From Nocardioides aurantiacus (lineage in GTDB: Bacteria > Actinomycetota > Actinomycetes > Propionibacteriales > Nocardioidaceae), in contig NZ_RKHO01000001.1 of NCBI RefSeq assembly GCF_003752505.1, forward strand, positions 3,038,001-3,102,000: a DNA stretch of 64,000 nucleotides. The letters run 5' to 3'. Below, piece after piece: positions 24,233 through 34,508 of this stretch. The notes beneath the pieces are model-generated. The model had not been told where the DNA came from. It did not search any database and saw nothing but the letters and a program-made list of their open reading frames with translations. The stretch's first letter is position 1. The number at the start of each line of letters is the position of its first letter. A program made the translations under genes and the position numbers.

Positions 24233-24901
24233 TCAGTCCTCCGAGACCTGGTCGCGCAGGGTGTCGCGCTGCTCGTGGAGCTTCCAGATGCGGTCGGCGA
24301 GGACGTCGGGGTCCTTCTCCGCGTCACCGGCGACGATGGCGCCACCGATGATCAGCTGGCCGACGTAGATGTCCTCCTCGCCGAGCACCTCGTGCAGCAG
24401 GTCGACGTAGGCCTTCTGTCCGGCGAACGCGATCGAGGTGCCGGTCACGTTGCGACCCGGCTTGACCGCCGAGCCGCCGTTGACGAACAGGATGCTGGGC
24501 TTGGCGCCCTCGGGCAGGAACCGCATGCCCGGGACGACCTGGTGGACGGCGGCGACGGGGCCGTAGATCGAGAACTCGACCGGACCGCGGAGGTCGGCCG
24601 GCGTGGTCTCCAGCACGGGGCGCATGAAGTCCTTCTGCGGCAGCGGGCTGTACTGCAGGACCTCGATCGGCCCGAGCGTCTCGGTCACCTGCTCCAGCGC
24701 GGCGGCGATGCTGTCGGGGTCGCGGACGTCGGCGGTGAAGCCCTTGGCCTGCACCCCGTCCTGCTCCAGCTCGCTGGCCAGCGCGTCCAGGCGCCCCTGG
24801 TGCCGCGAGATCAGGGCGACGGCGAAGCCCTCCTTGCCGAAACGACGGGCGACGGCAGCGCCGAGCCCCTTGCCTGCTCCGATGATGGCGAGAGTAGTCA
24901 T
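24233..24901 (-). CDS. SDR-fold protein lacking the catalytic tyrosine
   Basis: A 222-residue Rossmann protein with the SDR cofactor loop GAGKGLG at residues 8-14 and ARRFGKEGFAVALISR. At the active site the expected YxxxK reads F159-A-G-Q-K163, so the catalytic Tyr is replaced by Phe; a Ser (GGSA) is still present about 20 residues before. It may bind NAD(P) without classical dehydrogenase activity, or act as a reductase by another route. ATG 24901 is used because the nucleotide-binding fold begins at once; the frame is open to 24934. No operon partner is evident. Confidence 0.72.
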   Translation of the reverse strand: MTTLAIIGAGKGLGAAVARRFGKEGFAVALISRHQGRLDALASELEQDGVQAKGFTADVRDPDSIAAALEQVTETLGPIEVLQYSPLPQKDFMRPVLETTPADLRGPVEFSIYGPVAAVHQVVPGMRFLPEGAKPSILFVNGGSAVKPGRNVTGTSIAFAGQKAYVDLLHEVLGEEDIYVGQLIIGGAIVAGDAEKDPDVLADRIWKLHEQRDTLRDQVSED

Positions 24902-24918
24902 GCAGGTTTCAACCAGCT

Positions 24919-24947
24919 GCCCCACCCGAGTCATTCCCGGTGGGGGC
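24919..24947 (-). terminator. Stem-loop after rlmN
   Basis: GCCCCACC at 24919-24926 pairs with GGTGGGGGC (one bulged base) at 24939-24947. It lies in the 103-base gap between the rlmN stop and the SDR start, and is a weak terminator candidate. Confidence 0.3.
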
Positions 24948-25004
24948 GTCGAGACGGTCGGAGCGACCCCTCGGGGAGCCCGGACCGGACCTCGCGACCC
25001 CGGG

Positions 25005-26132
25005 TCAGTCGTCGACCGCGGCCAGCTGGCCGCAGGCGCCGTCGATCTCGCTGCCGCGGGTGTCCCGCACGGTGGTGGGGACGCCCTTGGCCTCGAGGCG
25101 GCGGACGAACTCGCGCTCGTCGGCGGGGTCGCTGGCCGTCCACTTCGAGCCCGGCGTGGGGTTGAGCGGGATCAGGTTGACGTGGACCCAGCCCCAGTCG
25201 CCGTAGGAGTTGAGCAGGTCGCCCAGCAGGTCGGCGCGCCAGGCCTGGTCGTTGATGCCGCGCATCATGGCGTACTCGATGGAGACGCGGCGCTTGGTGA
25301 CCCGGGCGTAGTTCCAGGCGGCCTCGACGGCCTCGGCGACCTTCCAGCGGGTGTTGACGGGCACCAGCTCGTCGCGCAGCTCGTCGTCGGGTGCGTGCAG
25401 GCTCAGCGCGAGCGTGACCGGGATCCCCTCCTCGGTCAGCTGGTTGATCCGCGGGACCAGGCCGACGGTGGAGACGGTGATGCCGCGGGCCGACATGCCC
25501 AGGCCGTCGGGGGTCGGGTCGGTGAGGCGGCGCACGGCCCCGATGACGGCCTTGTAGTTGGCCATCGGCTCGCCCATGCCCATGAACACCACGTTGGAGA
25601 CGCGGCCGGGACCACCGGCGACCTCGTCACGCGCGAGCGCCCGGGCGCCGGCGACGACCTGCTCGACGATCTCGGCGGTCGACATGTTGCGCTGCAGACC
25701 ACCCTGGCCGGTGGCGCAGAACGGGCAGGCCATGCCGCAGCCGGCCTGGCTGGAGACGCACATCGTGACGCGGCCGGGGTAGCGCATCAGCACCGACTCC
25801 ACGAGCGCGCCGTCGAAGAGCTTCCACAGCGTCTTGACCGTGGTGCCCTTGTCGGCCTCGAGGGTGCGCAGCGGGGTCATCAGGTGGGGCAGCAGCCCGT
25901 CGACGAGCTCCTGGCGCTGACTGGCCGGCAGGTCGGTCATCTGCGCCGGGTCGTCGACCAGGCGCGAGAAGTAGTGGGTGGAGAGCTGCTTGGCGCGGAA
26001 GCCCGGCAGGCCCAGCTCCTCCAGGCGCGCCTTGCGCTCGGCGGCCGTGAGGTCGGCGAGGTGGCGCGGCGGCTTGCCGCGGCGCGGGGGCTCCTCGAAG
26101 ACGAGGGGCAGGGTCTTGAGGGGTTCACTCAT
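25005..26132 (-). CDS. rlmN: Dual-specificity rRNA/tRNA adenine-C2 methyltransferase RlmN
   Basis: A 375-residue radical SAM enzyme that methylates A2503 of 23S rRNA and A37 of some tRNAs. The cluster motif CxxxCxxC is CGMACPFC, followed by [21 protein letters not shown] and the C-terminal methyl-accepting Cys in GACGQL. The N-terminal helical substrate-recognition domain covers about the first 90 residues. In related genomes rlmN sits between cdsA and dxr; here unrelated genes have been inserted on both sides. GGAGG lies 12 bases upstream of the ATG. Confidence 0.95.
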
Positions 26133-26195
26133 AGCCGGTCCATCCTCCCACCGGACCCGTGCCGCACCCCAATCGAGCGACCTGGGTCACGCGGC

Positions 26196-26585
26196 TCAGC
26201 CCGACGAGCCGAGCACGGCGACCAGGATGACCACGCACGCCCCGGCCAGCACGATCAGCACCGTCGCCGCCCCGGCGAGGAAGCCGATGGCCCACCAGCG
26301 GGTGCGCTCCACCACCAGCGCCGCCACCAGCCCGACGAGCTCCAGCACGCCGACGGCGAGCTGCGCGACACCTCCGACGGCGGGGTCCACCGACGGCAGC
26401 GCCGACAGCACGGCGGAGGGGATCGAGGTGAGGAAGGCCAGCACGAACATCAGCGGTGCGGCGAGGGCGAAGCCGATCCAGAACCTCGCCTTGTTGCTGA
26501 GCCCCGGACGGCCCGGGTGACCGGGCGGCGGGCTGCCGGGCGGGACCGGCGGACCGGCGTACGGCGGCGGCGGCTGCTGGCTCAT
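26196..26585 (-). CDS. Small membrane protein with proline-rich cytoplasmic head
   Basis: A 129-residue protein. The first 30 residues are Pro/Gly-rich (PPPPYAGPPVPPGSPPPG), followed by three hydrophobic helices (around WIGFALAAPLMFVLAFL, LAVGVLELVGLVAALVV and TVLIVLAGACVVILVAVL). Such Pro-rich-head, few-helix proteins are common in actinobacteria and have no assigned function. It lies 39 bases after the last tightly packed gene of the radical SAM operon and 63 bases before rlmN, so it could be the last member of that operon or an independent gene. Confidence 0.6.
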   Translation of the reverse strand: MSQQPPPPYAGPPVPPGSPPPGHPGRPGLSNKARFWIGFALAAPLMFVLAFLTSIPSAVLSALPSVDPAVGGVAQLAVGVLELVGLVAALVVERTRWWAIGFLAGAATVLIVLAGACVVILVAVLGSSG

Positions 26586-26624
26586 CGGTGGTCCTCCCGG
26601 TGGGGTCGTGGGACGGCGAGGGGG

Positions 26625-26930
26625 TCAGACACCGACGTGCCCGCCCGTCAGGGCGTACGCCGTGCCGGCCGCTCCGGCGACCGCCAGCGCGACCAGGTAG
26701 GCGATCACCAGCCGGGTGTCGCCGAGCCTGCAGCGGGACCGGAGCAGCCCGGCCCGTCGGGCGCGGGTGTAGCCGACCGCGCCGAGCACCGCGAACCCGA
26801 GCAGCGCGACGGGACCCAGCAGCCAGGCGAGCAGGGCCACGGTGGCGTAGACGCACAGCCGCAGCGGGTCGAACGACTCGTGCGCCGGCGCCTCCTCGTG
26901 GGGCGGCGCGACCTGCCGCGGGTCGCTCAC
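26625..26930 (-). CDS. Two-helix membrane protein at the end of the radical SAM operon
   Basis: A 101-residue protein. A polar head (PHEEAPAHESFDPLR) is followed by two hydrophobic segments (YATVALLAWLLGPVALLGF and VIAYLVALAVAGAAGTAY) separated by a basic loop [13 protein letters not shown]. No family recognised. GTG 26930 overlaps the stop of the radical SAM gene as GTGA, so translation is coupled to it. The frame is open far upstream but that region codes the radical SAM enzyme in another frame. A membrane-anchoring or accessory role for the enzyme is a reasonable guess and no more. Confidence 0.62.
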   Translation of the reverse strand: MSDPRQVAPPHEEAPAHESFDPLRLCVYATVALLAWLLGPVALLGFAVLGAVGYTRARRAGLLRSRCRLGDTRLVIAYLVALAVAGAAGTAYALTGGHVGV

Positions 26931-28537
26931 CGCGGCACCAGCGGCAGCCCGGCCGCGCTCGAGATCCGGCTGCGCGACAGCGGCGCCCACGCCTGCACCG
27001 CGCAGAACGGCGCGCACTGGTGGGCGGGCTCCCCCGCCTCGTCGCGCCCGACGGTGGCGACGTGCACGCAGCACTGCGTGAGCCGCTCCTCGATCATCGT
27101 GTTCATGTCCATGAACGGCTTGACCGTCACGCGCAGCACCCGCTCCCCCAGCAGCCGCCGCAGCCGCTGGTGGCCGCCGGGCAGGCGCGAGGCGGCCAGT
27201 GTCGTGAGCGTGCCGATGCCGAGGTCGCAGGCGGTGCAGATGTCCTTCCAGATCGAGCCCATGCTCGGGTGCGACAGCGACGACTGCTCCGAGAGCAGGT
27301 CGAGCAGCGACTGCTTGACCACGCCGCGCAGCTGGTCGGGGATGGCGTCGTCGGCGATCCGGTTGGCCAGCACGTCGGGCTCGAGGTCGAGCCACTGCTT
27401 GAGGCGCTCGTGGCCGACCAGGGAGACCAGCGAGCGCCAGCTGCCGGAGTCGTCGCGCAGCAGGTAGCCCACCGAGCAGCAGTGCGGGTGCGAGCACGGC
27501 AGCGCGGTCAGGTCGCGCCAGGTGACCACCCCGGCCGTCTGCTCCTCCAGCCGCGCGAGCACCCCGGTGTGGGTGAGCCGGTCCATCGGGTCCAGGCCGG
27601 CCGAGCGGCCCGAGCCGAAGACCGGCTGGATGGTCACGCCCCCGACGTACGGCGTGTCCAGGGCGCGCTCGAGCACCACGCCGATCTCGTCGTCGTTGAC
27701 GCCGAGCGCCGCGGTCATGGTCAGCGTGGTGAAGATGCCGGCGCCCGAGAGCCGCTCGACGGCACGCTCCTTGAAGCGGCGGATGTCGGCGCCGCGGTGG
27801 TGGACCGAGGCCTCGGCCGACTCCCCGTCGTACTGCAGGTAGACCTCGACCCGCTCCCGGTGCCGCGTCAGCAGCGCCAGCAGGTCGTCGTCCCGGGCGA
27901 TGGCCAGGCCGTTGGTGTTGACCAGCACCCGCACCACGGGACGGGCGGCGACGGCGTCGAGCAGCTCGGCCAGCCAGGGGTAGAGCGTCGGCTCGCCGCC
28001 GCTGAGCATGAGCACGTCGATGCGGCCGCGCTCCCGGGCCAGGCGGGCGTCGATCGAGGCCAGCACCTGCTCCAGCGGCGCCACCGAGGCCAGCGCGGGC
28101 GCCGAGGCGGCGAAGCAGGTCGGGCACTTGAGGTTGCAGTGGTCGAGCAGGTCCTCCAGCAGGATGCAGGTGTGCTGGGTCTGCATCTCCGGCAGCCCGT
28201 GCTCGTAGGCCGCGGGCACCGGCGCGAAGTTGCCGACCAGGTCGGGCGTGTGGACCTTGGTCGGCGCCGTCCACTGCTCGAGGTAGGTCAGGATCTCCGG
28301 CGACTCGTCGTACAGCGTGCGCACCAGGCCGTGGCCGGCGCAGCCGCGCTCGAGCCAGATGCGGCCGTCACGCTCCACCAGCCAGCCCGAGAGCCGCTGC
28401 ACCTCGGCGAGCGGCCGGTCGGGCCGCTCCTCGTGGCACAGCGGGCAGAAGGCGTTGACGTAGCGGTGGACCCGGTCGCCGCGCAGGGGCATCCCCGGGC
28501 CGCGGGCCGGGACCGGACCGGTCGGTGGTGCGGTCAT
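26927..28537 (-). CDS. Radical SAM enzyme of the Tes/MJ0619 (tetraether lipid synthase) type
   Basis: A 536-residue enzyme. The N-terminal metal site CPLC (C31, C34) with a later GCAGHG resembles the rubredoxin-like centre of MJ0619-type proteins. The radical SAM core has C134-x3-C138-x2-C141 (CNLKCPTC), LSGGEPT near 178, VNTNGLAI, YLQYDG and GVNDDEIG. Extra cysteines follow in PCSHPHCC, DICTACD and, near the end, CCVHV plus QCAPFC, matching the auxiliary-cluster region of the family. Archaeal Tes joins two lipid tails by sp3 C-C bond formation to make membrane-spanning lipids. ATG 28537 overlaps the Lgt-like stop (ATGA) and the stop overlaps the next start (GTGA). The exact substrate here is unknown. 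Confidence 0.8.
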   Translation of the reverse strand: MTAPPTGPVPARGPGMPLRGDRVHRYVNAFCPLCHEERPDRPLAEVQRLSGWLVERDGRIWLERGCAGHGLVRTLYDESPEILTYLEQWTAPTKVHTPDLVGNFAPVPAAYEHGLPEMQTQHTCILLEDLLDHCNLKCPTCFAASAPALASVAPLEQVLASIDARLARERGRIDVLMLSGGEPTLYPWLAELLDAVAARPVVRVLVNTNGLAIARDDDLLALLTRHRERVEVYLQYDGESAEASVHHRGADIRRFKERAVERLSGAGIFTTLTMTAALGVNDDEIGVVLERALDTPYVGGVTIQPVFGSGRSAGLDPMDRLTHTGVLARLEEQTAGVVTWRDLTALPCSHPHCCSVGYLLRDDSGSWRSLVSLVGHERLKQWLDLEPDVLANRIADDAIPDQLRGVVKQSLLDLLSEQSSLSHPSMGSIWKDICTACDLGIGTLTTLAASRLPGGHQRLRRLLGERVLRVTVKPFMDMNTMIEERLTQCCVHVATVGRDEAGEPAHQCAPFCAVQAWAPLSRSRISSAAGLPLVPR

Positions 28538-29271
28538 CGGGCGACCAGCTCCTCGGTGGTGGTGCCGGTGGGGCCGCGGTAGGCGCCGGAGCGCCACCGC
28601 AGCGCGATGCGCAGCAGCACCAGCGGGACGGTGACGGCGAGGAACAGCTGCGGCCGGGTCAGGCCGGCCCACACCACCTCGTTGCCGCGGGAGAGCTCGA
28701 TGACGAACCGGAAGATCCCGTACGCCGCGACCCACCACACGAACAGCTCGCCCGGGGGGAGCGACCGGTGCCGCAGCCACCACCAGACCACGGCGAAGCT
28801 CGCGACGTGGAAGCCGATCTCGGGGACGAAGGACCAGTTGGTGCCGCCGCCCGGACGTGGCTCGGTCAGCAGGCAGCCGACCCGCCCCACCGCCATCCCG
28901 AGCGCCACCGCGGGGGCGAACAGGTCGCCGGTGCGCAGCCGGTAGCCCACCAGCCGCTTGGCCACGTGCACCCCGAGCCAGGCGCCGACCAGGCCGCCGA
29001 GGACGCTGCGGTTGCCGCGCAGCCACTGCTCGACCAGCGTCGCGTTGTCGCGGAGGTCGGCGTGCTGCAGCCAGGTGCCGAGCCGCATGAGCAGCGCGCC
29101 GCCGACCAGCGCACCGGTGACCACGACGAGCAGCCGGTCGTCGGTGTGCCCGCGCCGGCGGGCCTCGACGACGAAGACGCCGACCGCCACGGCGACCCCC
29201 AGCGCCACGAAGGTGCCGTGGGTGTCGACCGGCAGCGGGACGCCCAGCAGGTCACCGAGGGTGGGGAACAA
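28534..29271 (-). CDS. Lgt-like integral membrane protein
   Basis: A 245-residue polytopic protein with the layout of prolipoprotein diacylglyceryl transferase: DTHGTF near the N-terminus, RSVLGGLVGAWLG, APAVALGMAVGRVGCLLTE and a late RGNEVVW segment. The Lgt signature GRxGNFxNgE is altered to GRVGCLLTEP, so it keeps the Arg and an acidic residue but not the full motif; it is probably a paralogue, not the housekeeping Lgt. The start is TTG 29271, supported by GGAAGGAG six bases upstream. It overlaps the upstream gene by 20 bases and the radical SAM gene by ATGA. A lipid substrate shared with its neighbour is likely but unproven. Confidence 0.78.
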   Translation of the reverse strand: MFPTLGDLLGVPLPVDTHGTFVALGVAVAVGVFVVEARRRGHTDDRLLVVVTGALVGGALLMRLGTWLQHADLRDNATLVEQWLRGNRSVLGGLVGAWLGVHVAKRLVGYRLRTGDLFAPAVALGMAVGRVGCLLTEPRPGGGTNWSFVPEIGFHVASFAVVWWWLRHRSLPPGELFVWWVAAYGIFRFVIELSRGNEVVWAGLTRPQLFLAVTVPLVLLRIALRWRSGAYRGPTGTTTEELVAR

Positions 29272-29992
29272 CCGCCGCTCCTTCCGGGACGCGTCCGCCG
29301 CGTGGGCGACACCCTGCCACGGCGGCCGTCACCACCGTCCACACCACGAGCACGACCCCGACCTCCGCCACGACGTACGCCGGCCAGGGACCGAGCAGGT
29401 CGAGCAGCGACCCACCCGACGGCTTGCCGTTGAGGTAGCCGTAGTTGGTGCCGATCGCGGCGTTGAGCACCATCACCGAGACCACCCACGCCAGCGTGGC
29501 CGCCACGGCGACGCGCAGCCCGCGCCAGCTCGGACGGCCCTGACCGGTGGCACCGAGGTGGACCGCCGACCAGATCGTCAGCAGGTGCATCGACCAGAAC
29601 ATCAGGTAGCGGGGGTCCGGGAACGTCTCCACCAGCGCCGGGGTGAGCACCGCCTGCGGCACCAGCGTCACGCCCCACAGCAGCAGCACCTGGGCGGGGC
29701 GCCGACGTCCCGTCCACAGCGCCCAGGCCGCCAGCATCCAGGCCAGGTCGCAGATCTGCAGCGGCAGCGAGGTGCCGAGCCGGAAGTCGCCGGGCAGCAG
29801 CTGCAGCACCTGCAGCGGCACCGTGGTCACGACCAGCAGCACCGCCACCGCGCGCCGGAACGACGGCTCCACCCCCCGAGCACGGAGCCGTCGTCCCAGC
29901 CACACGGCTCCCGCGCACCCGACCAGGCAGACCACGAGCCACGCGAGGTGGTCGGGTCCGAAGGCCTGGAACCGGGCGTCGGCGGGATCCAT
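29252..29992 (-). CDS. YwaF/TIGR02206-family membrane protein
   Basis: A 246-residue protein with six or seven transmembrane helices. Family marks are LPLQICDLAWMLAAW, YLMFWSMHLLTIW and NYGYLNGKPSGGSLLDLLG followed by PWPAYV. The family is widespread and uncharacterised. ATG 29992 has GGAAGGA nine bases upstream and is the first gene of the operon YwaF-like, Lgt-like, radical SAM, small membrane protein. Its last 20 bases overlap the start of the Lgt-like gene, so the two are translationally linked. Function unknown; the context points to membrane lipid handling. Confidence 0.82.
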   Translation of the reverse strand: MDPADARFQAFGPDHLAWLVVCLVGCAGAVWLGRRLRARGVEPSFRRAVAVLLVVTTVPLQVLQLLPGDFRLGTSLPLQICDLAWMLAAWALWTGRRRPAQVLLLWGVTLVPQAVLTPALVETFPDPRYLMFWSMHLLTIWSAVHLGATGQGRPSWRGLRVAVAATLAWVVSVMVLNAAIGTNYGYLNGKPSGGSLLDLLGPWPAYVVAEVGVVLVVWTVVTAAVAGCRPRGGRVPEGAAVVPHPR

Positions 29993-30108
29993 GTCGTGAT
30001 CCTTCCGGGGTCACGGGGCGACGTCATGGGTGCAGGTACTCAGGACGACCCGGGTACCCGACGTCATCCTGGGGCCCGCCGGCGTCCTCCCGGGGCCATC
30101 ATGGACCC

Positions 30109-31146
30109 GTGCCCTGGGTGCTGCACGTCGACATGGACCAGTTCATCGCCGCGGTCGAGGTCCTGCGCCGTCCCGAGCTCGCCGGCCGGCCGGTGGTGGT
30201 GGGCGGACGCGGCGACCCGACCGAGCGGGCGGTGGTGGCCACCGCGAGCTACGAGGCGCGCGAGCACGGCGTGCGGTCGGGCATGCCGCTGAAGACCGCC
30301 GTACGACGCTGCCCGGACGCCGTCCTCCTGCCCAGCGACCACGCGGCGTACGACGCGGCCTCGGCGGTCGTCATGGACACGCTGCGCGCCCAACCGGGTG
30401 CCGTGGTGCAGGTGCTCGGCTGGGACGAGGCGTTCGTCGGCGTCACCACCGACGACCCCGAGGCGTGGGCCCGCGCCGCGCAGGAGGCGGTCCTGGCCGC
30501 GACCGGGCTGCACTGCAGCGTCGGGATCGGCGACACCACGGTCCGCGCCAAGACCGCCACCGACCTCGGCAAGCCCCGCGGCCGGTTCCGGCTGACCCGG
30601 GAGAACTGGTTCGCGGTCATGGGCGAGCGCCCCGCGCGCGACCTGTGGGGCGTGGGCAGCCGCATCGCGGCGCGGCTGGCCGCGCTCGGCATCGCCACCG
30701 TCCGCGACCTCGCGGCGGCGGACGACGGGGTGCTCGCCGCGGAGTTCGGTCCCCGCACCGGCCCCTACCTGGGCCGACTGGGACGCGGGGTGAGCACCGA
30801 CGTCGTGGACGACACCCCGTGGGTGGCCCGCGCCCACGGCCGCGAGACGACCTACCAGCGCGACCTGCAGCCCGGGCCGGAGGTCGGGGCGGCGCTGCTC
30901 GAGCTGGCCACCCGGGTCGTCGACGACGTCCGCGCCGAGGGACGCGCCTGCGTCCGCGTGCACCTCAAGGTCAGGTTCGCGCCGTTCTCCACCGTGACCC
31001 GCTCACGCACGCTCCCCACCCCGACGTACGACGCGCAGCTGGTCGCCGCGACGGCAGCCGACCTGCTCGCCGCGCTGGACGACGACCGACCGGTGCGCCT
31101 GCTCGGCGTGCGGGCCGAGATGGAGGCCCCGGAGGGCGGCTACTGA
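30109..31146 (+). CDS. dinB: Y-family DNA polymerase (DinB/Pol IV type)
   Basis: A 345-residue translesion polymerase. Catalytic acids lie in HVDMDQF (D8, D10 region) and GWDEAFVGV (D and E); the steric/fidelity region is ATASYEAREHGVRSGMPL. A helix-hairpin-helix thumb region (LWGVGSRIAARLAALGI) and little-finger domain follow. The C-terminus stops shortly after RLLGVRAEM with no evident QLxLF-type clamp-binding tail, so clamp interaction may be weak or use another site. It starts at GTG 30109, with CATCAT six bases upstream. It overlaps the convergent phospholipase-like gene by 7 bases. Confidence 0.86.
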   Translation: MPWVLHVDMDQFIAAVEVLRRPELAGRPVVVGGRGDPTERAVVATASYEAREHGVRSGMPLKTAVRRCPDAVLLPSDHAAYDAASAVVMDTLRAQPGAVVQVLGWDEAFVGVTTDDPEAWARAAQEAVLAATGLHCSVGIGDTTVRAKTATDLGKPRGRFRLTRENWFAVMGERPARDLWGVGSRIAARLAALGIATVRDLAAADDGVLAAEFGPRTGPYLGRLGRGVSTDVVDDTPWVARAHGRETTYQRDLQPGPEVGAALLELATRVVDDVRAEGRACVRVHLKVRFAPFSTVTRSRTLPTPTYDAQLVAATAADLLAALDDDRPVRLLGVRAEMEAPEGGY

Positions 31147-32852
31147 GGCGGGACCACGTCGTCGGGGTCGCTGGTGAGGCTGTCGGCGAGGCGGCTCAGC
31201 TCGGCCGTCCCGGGCCCGACCACCGAGGGGTCGAGGCGGGCGGTGGAAGGCACCGTGGCACAGCGCGAGGTGGTGGCGCGCATCTGGTCCCAGTAGCCCA
31301 GGTAGGCGGTGTGCGCGCCGGCGATCGCCGTCCGCGAGGTCCCGGTCGCAGCCGCGGTGGACAGGCGCAGCACGGCCTCGTCGTTGCGCCTCAGCGCGTT
31401 GTAGCCGAGGTTCTGGGCCCCGGTCCAGATGCTCCGGTCGACGCGCCCCAGGCCGTCCACGCCGTCGATGGCGATCAGCTTCTCGTGCACCCCGGTGGTG
31501 CAGCGGACGTTCAGACCGTCCTGGAGCATCCGGGCGACACCGGCGGTCTGCGCCGTCCCGACGGGCTGGTTGACCACGACCCGGACGTCGCATCCCTGGG
31601 CCTGCAGTCGCGCCAGCGCGTCGAGGATGCGCGGTCGGCTCGGCGTGACGAACATCTGGGCGACCCGGACCGTCCGGTGGGTCGCCGTGCAGGAGAAGCG
31701 TTCCAGGGCGTAGGCCATCCGGTCGGAGGTGTGCTGCGGGGAGAAGCTGACGCTGCTGCCGCGACCCGCCGTGCCCGGCCGCTCGGCGCTGGGTTCGGCC
31801 CACACCCCGTTGCCGAGGGTCATCGTGTAGCCCTCAGCGGTCGCACCGAAGCTGCGTCGGGCCGTGGCCCAGCTCCCACAGCGCGACGCGTCGGCGCAGC
31901 TGAGCAGCTGCTCGAACTGCACGCGGAACTCCCGGGTCAGCACCGGGTCGTCGTACTGCAGGACCGTGCTCTGCCAGTTGTTGTTGAACTGGGCGCGGCT
32001 CCAGTTGCCGGTCGAGCTCAGCACCAGGGGGTCGACGTCGCCGGCCCAACGCATGTCGGTGATCGTCATGAACTTGTGGTGCTGGATGCCCTGCGTGCCC
32101 CCGGTCGTGCTGACCGGGACGACGCTGTGGCACCCGAAGTCGCAGGTGACGACGTCGGCGAAGGTGCGCAGCTTGAGGTAGCTGGCCCGCAGCTCCAGTC
32201 CCGGGCGGACCAGACGACCCTCGAGCAGCACCCGCACCTTCACGCCGCGGTAGCGGGCCATCCGCTCCAGGGAGTCGACGATCAGGTTGGCCTCGGTCCA
32301 CGAGCTGGCGTAGTAGCGGATGAAGTACATCGCGATGTCGATGCGCGACCCACGCTGCGCCGAGCAGATGGTCTGCGCGATCTTCCGCGCCGCGGTGGAC
32401 GCGCCCGTCCCACCGGGCCGGTTGAAGAGGACCTCGGTGCCGTTGGCCGGAGCCGAGCGCGAGGTGCAGGACAGCGCGGAGAGGGTGAAGGACCGGGACA
32501 CCGCGGCGGCGTAGGAGCGACTGCCGGCGTAGCGCACCCGGAAGCTCGCGGTGCTGCTGAGCGTCACGTCGAAGCCGAACCTCCGCACCGAGGTGGTGCG
32601 GGTGCTGGCCGCGGTCCTCCACGACGAGCCCACCTTGCGCTGCAGGCTCACCGTGGATCGAGCGGGCGCGCTGGCGACGCCGGTCACCCGCACCCGGTCG
32701 CCCTTGAGACCGGCACGGGTGCCGCTGTCCAGGCTGACCGACACCCGGCGCTTGGCGGCCTCGGCCGTGCTGGTCCCGCTGATCACCAGTGCCAGCGCCA
32801 GCACCGCGAGCAGCAGCAGCCGCAACGGCCGACCGGACGAGGTGGGCGTCAT
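31140..32852 (-). CDS. Secreted phospholipase D-like protein with N-terminal beta-domain
   Basis: A 570-residue precursor: signal peptide (LLLLAVLALALVISG, cleavage near AEAA), an Ig/adhesin-like beta-rich domain to about residue 125 (KRRVSVSLDSGTRAGL and repeated Ser/Arg strands), then two PLD half-sites. The second HKD motif is canonical (HEKLIAID, then WTGAQNLG). The first reads HHKFMTITD with one extra residue before Asp, followed by SSTGNWS, so it deviates slightly. PLD-family enzymes hydrolyse phosphodiesters; the real substrate could be phospholipid or nucleic acid. ATG 32852 is chosen with GGAG five bases upstream. Confidence 0.8.
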   Translation of the reverse strand: MTPTSSGRPLRLLLLAVLALALVISGTSTAEAAKRRVSVSLDSGTRAGLKGDRVRVTGVASAPARSTVSLQRKVGSSWRTAASTRTTSVRRFGFDVTLSSTASFRVRYAGSRSYAAAVSRSFTLSALSCTSRSAPANGTEVLFNRPGGTGASTAARKIAQTICSAQRGSRIDIAMYFIRYYASSWTEANLIVDSLERMARYRGVKVRVLLEGRLVRPGLELRASYLKLRTFADVVTCDFGCHSVVPVSTTGGTQGIQHHKFMTITDMRWAGDVDPLVLSSTGNWSRAQFNNNWQSTVLQYDDPVLTREFRVQFEQLLSCADASRCGSWATARRSFGATAEGYTMTLGNGVWAEPSAERPGTAGRGSSVSFSPQHTSDRMAYALERFSCTATHRTVRVAQMFVTPSRPRILDALARLQAQGCDVRVVVNQPVGTAQTAGVARMLQDGLNVRCTTGVHEKLIAIDGVDGLGRVDRSIWTGAQNLGYNALRRNDEAVLRLSTAAATGTSRTAIAGAHTAYLGYWDQMRATTSRCATVPSTARLDPSVVGPGTAELSRLADSLTSDPDDVVPPQ

Positions 32853-32992
32853 GGTCACTCCAGGGTTCCGAGCGCTCTGCCGACCAGGACGGCGAGACCC
32901 CGCATCCTAGACACTTCCGAGTCGCCGTCACGCCGGTACGACCGAAACGCGACCCTGCGTCCCACCCGTTGGGCAGCGACGCGGGAGCTCGA

Positions 32993-33910
32993 CTAGAAGA
33001 CGAGGTAGTGCAGCACCAGCCAGATCGGGGCGATGGTGGCCAGCAGCGAGTCGAGCCGGTCCATGAGACCGCCGTGACCCGGGATGATCTGGCTCATGTC
33101 CTTGATGCCGAGGTCGCGCTTCATCACCGACTCGCACAGGTCGCCCAGCGTGGCCATCACGACGGCGATCAGGCCGAGCAGGACGCCGATCCACCAGTCG
33201 GAGCCGAGCAGCAGCACGACGAGCAGGACGCCCGCCGCGACGCAGGCGAGGGCCGACCCGGCGAACCCCTCCCACGACTTCTTGGGCGAGATCACCGGTG
33301 CCATCGGGTGCTTGCCGAACAGCACGCCGGCGACGTACCCCCCGATGTCGGAGGCGACGGTGATCACCACGAAGGTCACGATCCCCTTGACGCCGTCGCT
33401 GCCGTCCTCGGCGAGCAGCAGCGCCACGAACGAACCCAGGAACGGGATGTAGATCAGCGTGAACACCGAGGCGGTGGCGTTCTGGACGTAGCCCTCGACC
33501 CCGCGGCGCAGCAGCCACAGCATCGTCACCAGGGCGGTGACGGCGGTGGCGGTGATGAGCGCGTCGGGCCCGTCGTCACGCCCGCCGAGGAAGGCGACGA
33601 CGACCATGATCGAGCCGCCGAGCATCAACGGCTCCTGCGGCAGGTCGATCCCGCGCGCCTGCAGGCCCCGGTGCATCTCCCAGACCGCCACCAGGACGGC
33701 GGCGACCACGATCAGCATGAACGCCGGCTTCCAGATCACCAGCGAGAGGATGATCGCCGCGCCCAGCCCGACGCCCGAGGCGATGGCTGCGGGCAGGTTG
33801 CGACCTGCACGCGAGGTCTTCACGGCCTCGGCGGGCGGGTGGTCGACGGGGTCGGTCGGCTGCGGGGGCCGCTGTTCGGGCTGCTGCTGAGGCGACGGCG
33901 GCTGGGTCAC
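32993..33910 (-). CDS. cdsA: Phosphatidate cytidylyltransferase
   Basis: Makes CDP-diacylglycerol, the precursor of all anionic phospholipids, at the inner membrane. The 305-residue protein has a Pro/Gln-rich cytoplasmic head (TQPPSPQQQPEQRPPQP), about eight transmembrane helices and the C-terminal family signature SVMKRDLGIKDMSQIIPGHG followed by GLMDR. GTG 33910 is preferred; the frame runs on upstream but would overlap frr. The gene lies 37 bases after frr in the rpsB-tsf-pyrH-frr-cdsA order. The Pro/Gln-rich head is typical for actinobacterial CdsA. Confidence 0.94.
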   Translation of the reverse strand: MTQPPSPQQQPEQRPPQPTDPVDHPPAEAVKTSRAGRNLPAAIASGVGLGAAIILSLVIWKPAFMLIVVAAVLVAVWEMHRGLQARGIDLPQEPLMLGGSIMVVVAFLGGRDDGPDALITATAVTALVTMLWLLRRGVEGYVQNATASVFTLIYIPFLGSFVALLLAEDGSDGVKGIVTFVVITVASDIGGYVAGVLFGKHPMAPVISPKKSWEGFAGSALACVAAGVLLVVLLLGSDWWIGVLLGLIAVVMATLGDLCESVMKRDLGIKDMSQIIPGHGGLMDRLDSLLATIAPIWLVLHYLVF

Positions 33911-33947
33911 GGGGCGACGGGCCGGACGGGCGAGTGCTCGGAGGTCC

Positions 33948-34508
33948 TCAGACCTCGAGCAGCTCGGCTTCCTTGGTCTTGAGCATCTCGTCGATCTGGT
34001 CGACGTGCTTCTTGGTGGTCCCGTCGAGCTTCTTCTCCGCGCCGGTGACGTCATCCTTGCCGACCTCCCCGTCCTTCTCCAGCTTCTCCAGCGCCTGCTT
34101 GGTGTTGCGGCGGATGTTGCGCACGGAGACCTTGCCGTCCTCGGCCTTGGCGCGGGCGATCTTGATGTACTCCTTGCGGCGCTCCTCGGTCAGCTCGGGG
34201 AAGACGCAGCGGATGATCTTGCCGTCGTTGGAGGGGTTCACGCCCAGGTCGCTGTCGCGGATGGCGCGCTCGATCGCCGGCAGCGCGCTCATGTCGTACG
34301 GCGCGACCAGGATGATCCGGGCCTCCGGCGCCGTGAACGAGGCGATCTGCTGCACGGGGGTGGGCGTGCCGTAGTAGTCCGCGGTCAGCTTGGAGAACAT
34401 CTGCGGGTTGGCCCGGCCGGCGCGGATCGCGGCGAACTCCTCGCGGGTGACCTCGACGGCCTTCGCCATGCGCTGGTCGGCGTCGGTCAGGGACTGGTTG
34501 ATCGTCAC
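33948..34508 (-). CDS. frr: Ribosome recycling factor
   Basis: A 186-residue protein that, with EF-G, splits the post-termination ribosome. Domain I is a three-helix bundle (KAVEVTREEFAAIRAGRANP at the start; RRKEYIKIARAKAEDGKVSV and the C-terminal helix), domain II a small beta-rich part in the middle (QIASFTAPEARIILVAPYD). The length is standard. GTG start with AGGAGAGAAG upstream. It is 14 bases from pyrH. Confidence 0.96.
   Translation of the reverse strand: MTINQSLTDADQRMAKAVEVTREEFAAIRAGRANPQMFSKLTADYYGTPTPVQQIASFTAPEARIILVAPYDMSALPAIERAIRDSDLGVNPSNDGKIIRCVFPELTEERRKEYIKIARAKAEDGKVSVRNIRRNTKQALEKLEKDGEVGKDDVTGAEKKLDGTTKKHVDQIDEMLKTKEAELLEV

Follow-up and report, generated by a model that had tools for sequence, protein, structure and literature searches.

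The 64,000-nucleotide stretch of the Nocardioides aurantiacus genome analysed here (hereafter the window; assembly GCF_003752505.1, contig NZ_RKHO01000001.1, positions 3,038,001 to 3,102,000) carries on its minus strand a compact cassette built around a radical S-adenosylmethionine (SAM) enzyme, rSAM, whose predicted fold is that of the archaeal tetraether synthase Tes (MJ0619). Its constant companion is a membrane protein of the Lgt fold, and small membrane proteins usually complete the group, which may modify the acyl tails of membrane glycerolipids. The genes and sites of the locus are as follows.

29252..29992, minus strand: TMEM164-related integral membrane protein (P0003, 246 aa), which reads as a local addition outside the core
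28534..29271, minus strand: Lgt-fold integral membrane protein (P0002, 245 aa, TTG start), core partner
26927..28537, minus strand: Tes/MJ0619-fold radical SAM enzyme (P0001, 536 aa), core
28331..28447, minus strand: rubredoxin-type site C31/C34/C66/H69 of the enzyme, equivalent to MJ0619 C9/C12/C33/H36 and kept in 21/21 orthologs
28115..28138, minus strand: radical SAM motif CxxxCxxC (C134-C141), the only CxxxCxxC of the protein
27119..27121, minus strand: codon of K473, which aligns with Met439, the labile cluster ligand in MJ0619; Lys in 21/21 orthologs
26625..26930, minus strand: two-helix membrane protein (P0004, 101 aa, GTG start) whose cysteines stand in DPLRLC and S-x-C; a partner in most loci
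26196..26585, minus strand: three-helix membrane protein (P0005, 129 aa) with a C-terminal GxC, a frequent but loosely conserved fourth member

Read from 29992 to 26196, the five genes are therefore TMEM164-like, Lgt-like, rSAM, two-helix and three-helix, and the first four are joined by overlaps of 20 bases (29252-29271, TMEM164-like/Lgt-like), ATGA (28537-28534, Lgt-like/rSAM) and GTGA (26930-26927, rSAM/two-helix). The initial annotation, made from the sequence alone, had described a tight operon with exactly these overlaps, and all the motifs that it quoted are present in the translation of 26927-28537, namely CPLC (C31/C34), CNLKCPTC (C134/C138/C141), LSGGEPT, NTNGLAI, GVNDDEIG, QCCVHV (C489/C490) and HQCAPFC (C508/C512). 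Its four genes are likewise confirmed, and the range that it gave also contains a fifth at 26196-26585, members of whose family adjoin rSAM elsewhere. The TTG start of the Lgt-like gene agrees with start positions in several relatives. A scan of positions 24900-30400 for sigma-70 promoters and terminators found none.

The spread of the cassette was followed in three sets of sequences. Named loci were the best 80 of at least 577 matching stretches, among which close relatives are over-represented, while samples of the phylum (396 genomes) and of the family (149 genomes, the same draw across searches to judge by shared genome handles) give less biased counts; neighbours were counted from iterated matches to hidden Markov models (HMMs), and the gene finder misses small genes. 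By record titles, all named loci belong to the Actinomycetota, including Nocardioides, Microbacterium, Leucobacter, Arthrobacter, Janibacter, Nocardia, Mycobacterium, Micromonosporaceae and others. When the 12 loci with shorter flanks were left out, the Lgt-like gene adjoined rSAM in all 68 loci whose flanks exceed 2.5 kb on each side, always on the same strand and in one of two gene orders (upstream of rSAM in 48, downstream in 20), and it was found in 77 of the full 80, the remaining three having fewer than 460 bases of upstream sequence. The two-helix gene was present in 60 of the 68 well-flanked loci (70 of the 80) and the three-helix family in 62 (70 of the 80), with no match to the Lgt-like, two-helix or three-helix models lying more than 2 kb from rSAM in the 68.

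The broader samples gave the same picture. After two genomes with only a distant homolog (G398 and G407) were dropped from 20 matching genomes of the family sample, an rSAM ortholog remained in 18 of 149; the Lgt-like gene occurred in the identical 18, of which 17 also had the two-helix gene, a fragment of this gene being found in one other genome. In the phylum sample, orthologs (at least 58% identity) were found in 10 of 396 genomes including the window's own, and eight of the other nine were read (G124 was not among them), showing the Lgt-like gene in 8/8, the two-helix gene in 5/8 and the three-helix gene in 4/8. The Lgt-like neighbour was found beside none of the eight distant Tes-like homologs read. 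The rSAM/Lgt-like pair is also plasmid-borne in M. avium (pS2b) and M. branderi, and the genes there are annotated no further than as 'radical SAM protein', 'prolipoprotein diacylglyceryl transferase family protein' and hypothetical proteins; the M. branderi megaplasmid has two DUF3558 genes immediately before the cassette (L170:3237-4294). Between the window and genome G483, the ratio of nonsynonymous to synonymous substitution rates (dN/dS) was 0.18 for rSAM, 0.19 for the Lgt-like gene, 0.06 for the two-helix gene and 0.20 for the three-helix gene, indicating purifying selection. The co-occurrence counts thus describe a cassette of patchy distribution, with a conserved main pair and a varying gene order, which is probably a mobile, accessory element of actinobacteria; on these comparative grounds, rSAM and the Lgt-like gene are passed on together as one unit. 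The link to the Lgt-fold gene that the initial annotation had proposed therefore holds throughout, and that to the two-helix gene holds in most loci, whereas the third neighbour in its four-gene set, the TMEM164-like gene, is not a general partner.

The rSAM enzyme is homologous to MJ0619 over its full length and is predicted to adopt the complete Tes/MJ0619 fold. In a phmmer comparison it matched MJ0619 (7tol_A) over residues 19-496 (E 4.7e-29), well outside what chance would give, the family profile matched the same protein with E 4.9e-40, and both Pfam Zn_ribbon_HMPTM and Radical_SAM scored over their cut-offs. The structure predicted from 44 sequences (predicted local distance difference test score, pLDDT, 83.7; predicted template-modelling score, pTM, 0.86) superposed on 7TOM with Z 48.0 and a root-mean-square deviation of 3.7 over 449 aligned residues, the next family being MoaA at Z 20.8, and Foldseek likewise ranked tetraether synthase first (E 2.5e-32, TM 0.71/0.76; next family 1.8e-10). 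The match over the full length means that the entire Tes architecture, beyond the radical SAM barrel, is present in the model. Structure prediction, a check that the initial annotation had suggested, thus bore out the Tes/MJ0619-type fold. No hydrophobic segment of transmembrane strength was found in the enzyme.

Residues were compared in an alignment of 21 family members (L038 being excluded owing to an in-frame stop), 17 other homologs and MJ0619. The rubredoxin ligands, the radical SAM cluster cysteines and the cysteines of the C-terminal cluster (C353, C489, C490 and C512, equivalent by alignment to MJ0619 C338, C455, C456 and C470) are kept in 21/21, as are four of the five checked contacts to SAM and 5'-deoxyadenosine (F106, G145, R210 and Q268). 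Tes is described with two CxxxCxxC motifs (excerpt of PMC8941075), and two occur in MJ0619 and in 15 of the 17 other homologs, against one in 21/21 members of the window family. The family also has cysteines that MJ0619 lacks: C124 and C348 are common to most or all of the 17 other homologs, while C434 (20/21), C437 (21/21) and C508 (21/21) are nearly family-specific, with Cys at the C437 place in two others. A maximum-likelihood tree groups the 21 members as a single clade (support 100/100, branch of 4.45 changes per column); since MJ0619 is the only characterised Tes in it, the tree shows one clade and not its nearest sister, which the midpoint root and long branches (MJ0619 and several distant rows) leave unsure. 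In the phylum sample no match exceeded the cut-off of the NCBIfam Tes model, which three archaeal controls passed, and nine more distant homologs (actinobacterial, plus one haloarchaeal and one from Bacteroidota) scored 282-331 bits for Tes and 314-355 for TrsS, none over either cut-off. By these sequence comparisons the rSAM enzyme lies outside the Tes family proper and is a member of a new subfamily.

The Lgt-like protein has, to judge from sequence and fold comparison, the Lgt fold together with its Arg/Glu/Tyr network for phosphatidylglycerol binding and catalysis. It matches Pfam PF01790 (72.2 bits, cut-off 24.9) and E. coli Lgt 5AZB (Z 14.3, next row 7.2), and the equivalents of R143, E202, Y235, R239, E243 and R246 do not vary across 30 aligned sequences, with R130, R188, E192 and R195 corresponding to Lgt R143, R239, E243 and R246. 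In E. coli Lgt, R143 and the R239 network are tied to phosphatidylglycerol binding and transfer (excerpt of PMC4728403). The Lgt signature also includes Glu151, mutation of which inactivates E. coli Lgt; in the Lgt-like family an invariant Glu (E137) sits in the motif one position before it. The protein is not the housekeeping Lgt, because the genome has a true Lgt elsewhere (PF01790, 223 bits versus 70 for the Lgt-like protein), and the lgt equivalog TIGR00544 gives the Lgt-like protein only 42.5 bits, below its cut-off of 118.9. Loss of His103 from the HGGL motif was considered as proof of a new function and rejected: the true Lgt of the same genome likewise lacks it, so that the residue does not discriminate. 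In that housekeeping gene (L140:1501-2250; C1:2384973-2385722), WGA stands at the HGG (His103) that is essential in E. coli Lgt. The loop between the fourth and fifth transmembrane helices, which forms the periplasmic head (the head-domain loop), is much shorter than in most relatives at window 28534-29271, L192:3344-4066 and L131.

Two families of small membrane proteins accompany the pair. In the two-helix protein a long first helix is preceded by DPLRLC, and a second Cys follows an arginine-rich loop; the two cysteines are kept in 71/71 sequences. The window's copy has no Pfam match over cut-off and matches nothing in NCBIfam (E up to 1) or PADLOC (E up to 0.01), and in 72,556 plasmid records (E 0.01) matches came from Nonomuraea only, about 100 bases from its rSAM gene. 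The three-helix family has a GxC near the C-terminus, with Cys in 80 of 85 matches; its model is loose, with matches of 17-102 bits and one weak 20-bit match beside a distant homolog.

Taken together, the retained Tes architecture and an Lgt-fold partner with an intact phosphatidylglycerol site argue for glycerolipid tails as the substrate. A lipid of some kind is probably what rSAM acts on, judging from its sequence and model, and our leading but tentative reading, held at somewhat less than an even chance, is that the cassette modifies the acyl tails of membrane glycerolipids, most likely by tail-to-tail coupling. Iso and anteiso tails are common in Microbacteriaceae and Micrococcaceae. Such tails chemically resemble archaeal tail ends, an argument that the excerpted text of PMC8941075 makes for iso tails and bacterial Tes homologs. 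MJ0619 itself holds two lipids, takes hydrogen from a terminal carbon and couples terminal tail carbons, the first radical being thought to be stored on its C-terminal cluster, and crystals of MJ0619 made in E. coli showed tunnel density read as two phosphatidic acids (all in the excerpt of PMC9433317). By analogy, rSAM would hold a (phospho)glycerolipid in a Tes-like pocket and, with SAM, abstract a hydrogen at the hydrophobic end of one of its acyl tails. The tail radical would then be handled by the C-terminal [Fe4S4] cluster (C353, C489/C490 and C512 by alignment) with Lys473 at the labile-ligand place, and the most likely outcome would be its joining to a second tail, giving a membrane-spanning or cyclised lipid. 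From the outer face, the Lgt-like protein would bind the same phosphatidylglycerol-type lipid and move its diacylglyceryl end to an acceptor, while the small membrane proteins would tether rSAM, a soluble enzyme, to the membrane or, with lower likelihood, serve as Cys acceptor. The fullest version of this scheme, in which a horizontally spread system combines tail joining by a Tes relative (with one cluster fewer and the Lys) with a repurposed Lgt whose new acceptor is not a lipoprotein but perhaps the two-helix partner, through its cysteine, is unlikely as a whole.

Several observations weigh against this reading. Although the fold and full-length homology claimed in the initial annotation stand, membership of the Tes family proper does not: in the HMM search that it had proposed, rSAM scored 139.3 bits against a cut-off of 450 for Tes (NF045702), and the best-scoring NCBIfam model was TrsS (NF045646; 178.1 bits over residues 46-513), far under its cut-off of 490. 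Membership is further contradicted by altered residues, all in 21/21 orthologs. The N-terminal [Fe4S4] ligands C73, C77 and C80 of MJ0619 are absent, and Met439 is replaced by Lys (K473), a position occupied by Glu, Gln, Met, His or Thr in the 17 other homologs. Tyr459 has become Val, and the Ser271 contact Phe, which is likewise found in 5 of the 17. In MJ0619, Met439 is the labile ligand of the C-terminal cluster and both it and Tyr459 are conserved across 1000 archaeal homologs, although the Y459F and Y459L variants remain active (excerpt of PMC9433317). Based on the alignment, the changed residues and the lost cluster suggest that the reaction may differ from that of Tes. In the model, residues ~381-460, between the barrel and the C-terminal domain, are poorly predicted (block pLDDT 40-73). 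The Lgt signature GRxGN reads GRxGC in the partner (Asn146 to Cys in 53/53), and the window's head-domain loop, at nine residues (as in G478 and G483), is 23 below the median of 32 among 71 relatives, three others being at 17-22 and G507 at 32; given its dN/dS, the protein is still constrained despite the short loop. The two-helix gene is absent beside rSAM in 8 of the 68 well-flanked loci, in three of the eight phylum-sample genomes (all of one genus) and on both mycobacterial plasmids; the ten named loci without it include four mycobacterial ones as well as Nocardioides, Janibacter and Micromonosporaceae. The three-helix family is only loosely conserved apart from its GxC. In addition, mycobacteria carry the rSAM/Lgt-like pair but are not rich in iso or anteiso tails.

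The changed cluster ligand and the missing cluster place modification of a single tail close behind coupling. Here rSAM would insert sulfur, hydroxylate or oxidise, desaturate, or methylate an unactivated carbon of one tail, after which the Lgt-like protein would transfer the diacylglyceryl group. This explanation, which we consider possible but rather unlikely, draws on the Lys at the Met439 place and the loss of the N-terminal cluster, on the formation of a sulfur-bearing lipid (S-AG) by MJ0619 when SAM is limiting (excerpt of PMC9433317), and on two other Tes-like homologs that are directly followed by a methyltransferase gene. However, it leaves a two-lipid architecture retained beyond need, and neither a sulfur-donor nor a methyltransferase gene was recognised by eye among the neighbour clusters found in at least five loci, where small genes are incompletely represented. 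The two methyltransferase arrangements lie on a Mycolicibacterium vanbaalenii plasmid (L171:5959-8327) and a haloarchaeal plasmid (L172:4890-7168), with CcdA/thiol-redox or peroxiredoxin genes near these Tes/TrsS-like genes, and represent a different Tes-like system. A protein substrate is less likely still: rSAM would modify a small Cys-containing membrane protein or lipoprotein that the Lgt-like protein then lipidates, in a maturation resembling that of lipoproteins or of ribosomally synthesised and post-translationally modified peptides. The known acceptor of Lgt is a protein Cys, both small families have (near-)invariant cysteines, the DPLRLC cysteine would by the positive-inside rule face outwards, on Lgt's side, and the fold matches that come next for the rSAM model include two peptide maturases, SuiB and SkfB. 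Yet the enzyme that the rSAM fold matches over its full length acts on lipids, DPLRLC does not constitute a lipobox, and several mycobacterial loci keep rSAM and the Lgt-like gene without the two-helix gene. A lipoprotein substrate encoded nearby was rejected despite the DUF3558 pair in M. branderi, as a crude pattern scan showed no enrichment of lipobox open reading frames near the cassette (1/474 near versus 11/675 far).

It is also improbable that rSAM is a plain actinobacterial Tes or Mss making membrane-spanning lipids of the branched glycerol dialkyl glycerol tetraether (brGDGT) type, with incidental neighbours. Bacterial homologs have been reported, with Mss in metagenome-assembled genomes (MAGs) of Actinobacteriota, and have been proposed as brGDGT makers (excerpts of PMC11868695 and PMC8941075), but the phylum sample holds no match over the Tes cut-off, the family forms its own fully supported clade on a long branch and lacks the second CxxxCxxC, and the Lgt-like neighbour is not incidental. 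Very remote is the idea that the TMEM164-like gene completes a four-gene functional unit for ether-lipid or lipoprotein acyl remodelling. The genes do overlap in the window genome, and TMEM164 and LhaT, of the same superfamily, transfer acyl or acetyl groups (PMC12345273). The product, P0003, had been labelled YwaF-like in the initial annotation, a label replaced here by TMEM164-type acyltransferase homolog as it scores over the cut-offs of PF14808 (TMEM164; 165 bits) and TIGR02206 ('TMEM164-related integral membrane acyltransferase'; 176.5 bits, cut-off 75). Its role as a general partner, also proposed there, fails: among the 18 family genomes with rSAM, the gene is adjacent in two (G000 and G483), unlinked in nine and without a match (E 1e-10) in seven, while 57 of its 68 carriers among the 149 genomes have no rSAM ortholog, and it occurs in the flanks (up to 7 kb) of none of the 80 named loci. 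In G478 the gene is caught in decay, its final stretch and a 46-base piece, interrupted by stops (L192:3031-3360), being all that is left of it beside an intact cassette, and G507 has no such gene there. The TMEM164-like gene was therefore rejected as a core partner and reads, from this distribution, as a local addition, although it may still matter locally given the purifying selection between G000 and G483 (dN/dS 0.24). An anti-phage role for the cassette was also rejected, since PADLOC gave only weak viperin matches to the radical SAM core.

Compared with known systems, rSAM resembles Tes (GDGT-MAS; MJ0619, 7TOL/7TOM) in its full-length fold, metal sites and SAM contacts, and differs from it in its lost cluster, substituted residues, extra cysteines, sub-cut-off score and Lgt-like partner. 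TrsS is the closest NCBIfam model by score, although rSAM is far from passing it, and is listed as a selenoprotein (excerpt of PMC13188914); the window gene has no in-frame stop, and the name '(seleno)protein' of the model implies that selenocysteine is not universal. Mss, the proposed tail-joining enzyme of bacterial phospholipids (excerpts of PMC13274423 and PMC11868695), can be likened by description only. The Lgt-like protein shares the fold and invariant network of Lgt, but has Cys for Asn146, falls below the equivalog cut-off and coexists with a true Lgt, while P0003 belongs with the TMEM164/LhaT (ATGY) superfamily and is not conserved with the cassette. The Tes fold is known, as are bacterial Tes and Mss homologs, including Mss in Actinobacteriota, which the excerpt of PMC11868695 notes in general terms. 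A literature search of titles and abstract openings found no description of the Lgt-linked rSAM family, and we regard this subfamily of the Tes-fold enzyme and its genetic system as new.

The joining of lipids tail to tail is a chemical hallmark of the membranes of archaea and of some bacteria. The GDGT/brGDGT climate proxies, about whose bacterial sources there is debate, depend on it. A Tes-fold enzyme inherited together with an Lgt-fold relative in many actinobacterial genomes, several of which are from named strains, offers a directly testable case. If the coupling reading is true, the family would show how the Tes mechanism varies in nature when one iron-sulfur cluster is missing and another residue takes the position of the labile ligand, the Lgt fold would have a non-housekeeping role, and common actinobacteria would contain an unrecognised class of membrane lipid.

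Around the cassette, an RlmN-type gene lies downstream (25005-26132) and a DNA polymerase IV gene upstream on the opposite strand, with frr- and cdsA-like genes, read by eye, at 33948-34508 and 32993-34054. In four other named loci (L029, L036, L035 and L037), which come from two Nocardioides isolates, one Nocardioides MAG and one Nocardioidaceae MAG, clusters read as pyrH, frr and cdsA adjoin the cassette too. Also near the cassette, at 31140-32858 on the minus strand, is a gene for a phospholipase-D-like protein with a signal-peptide-like start and, by eye, an HxKxxxxD-type motif (HHKFMTITD).

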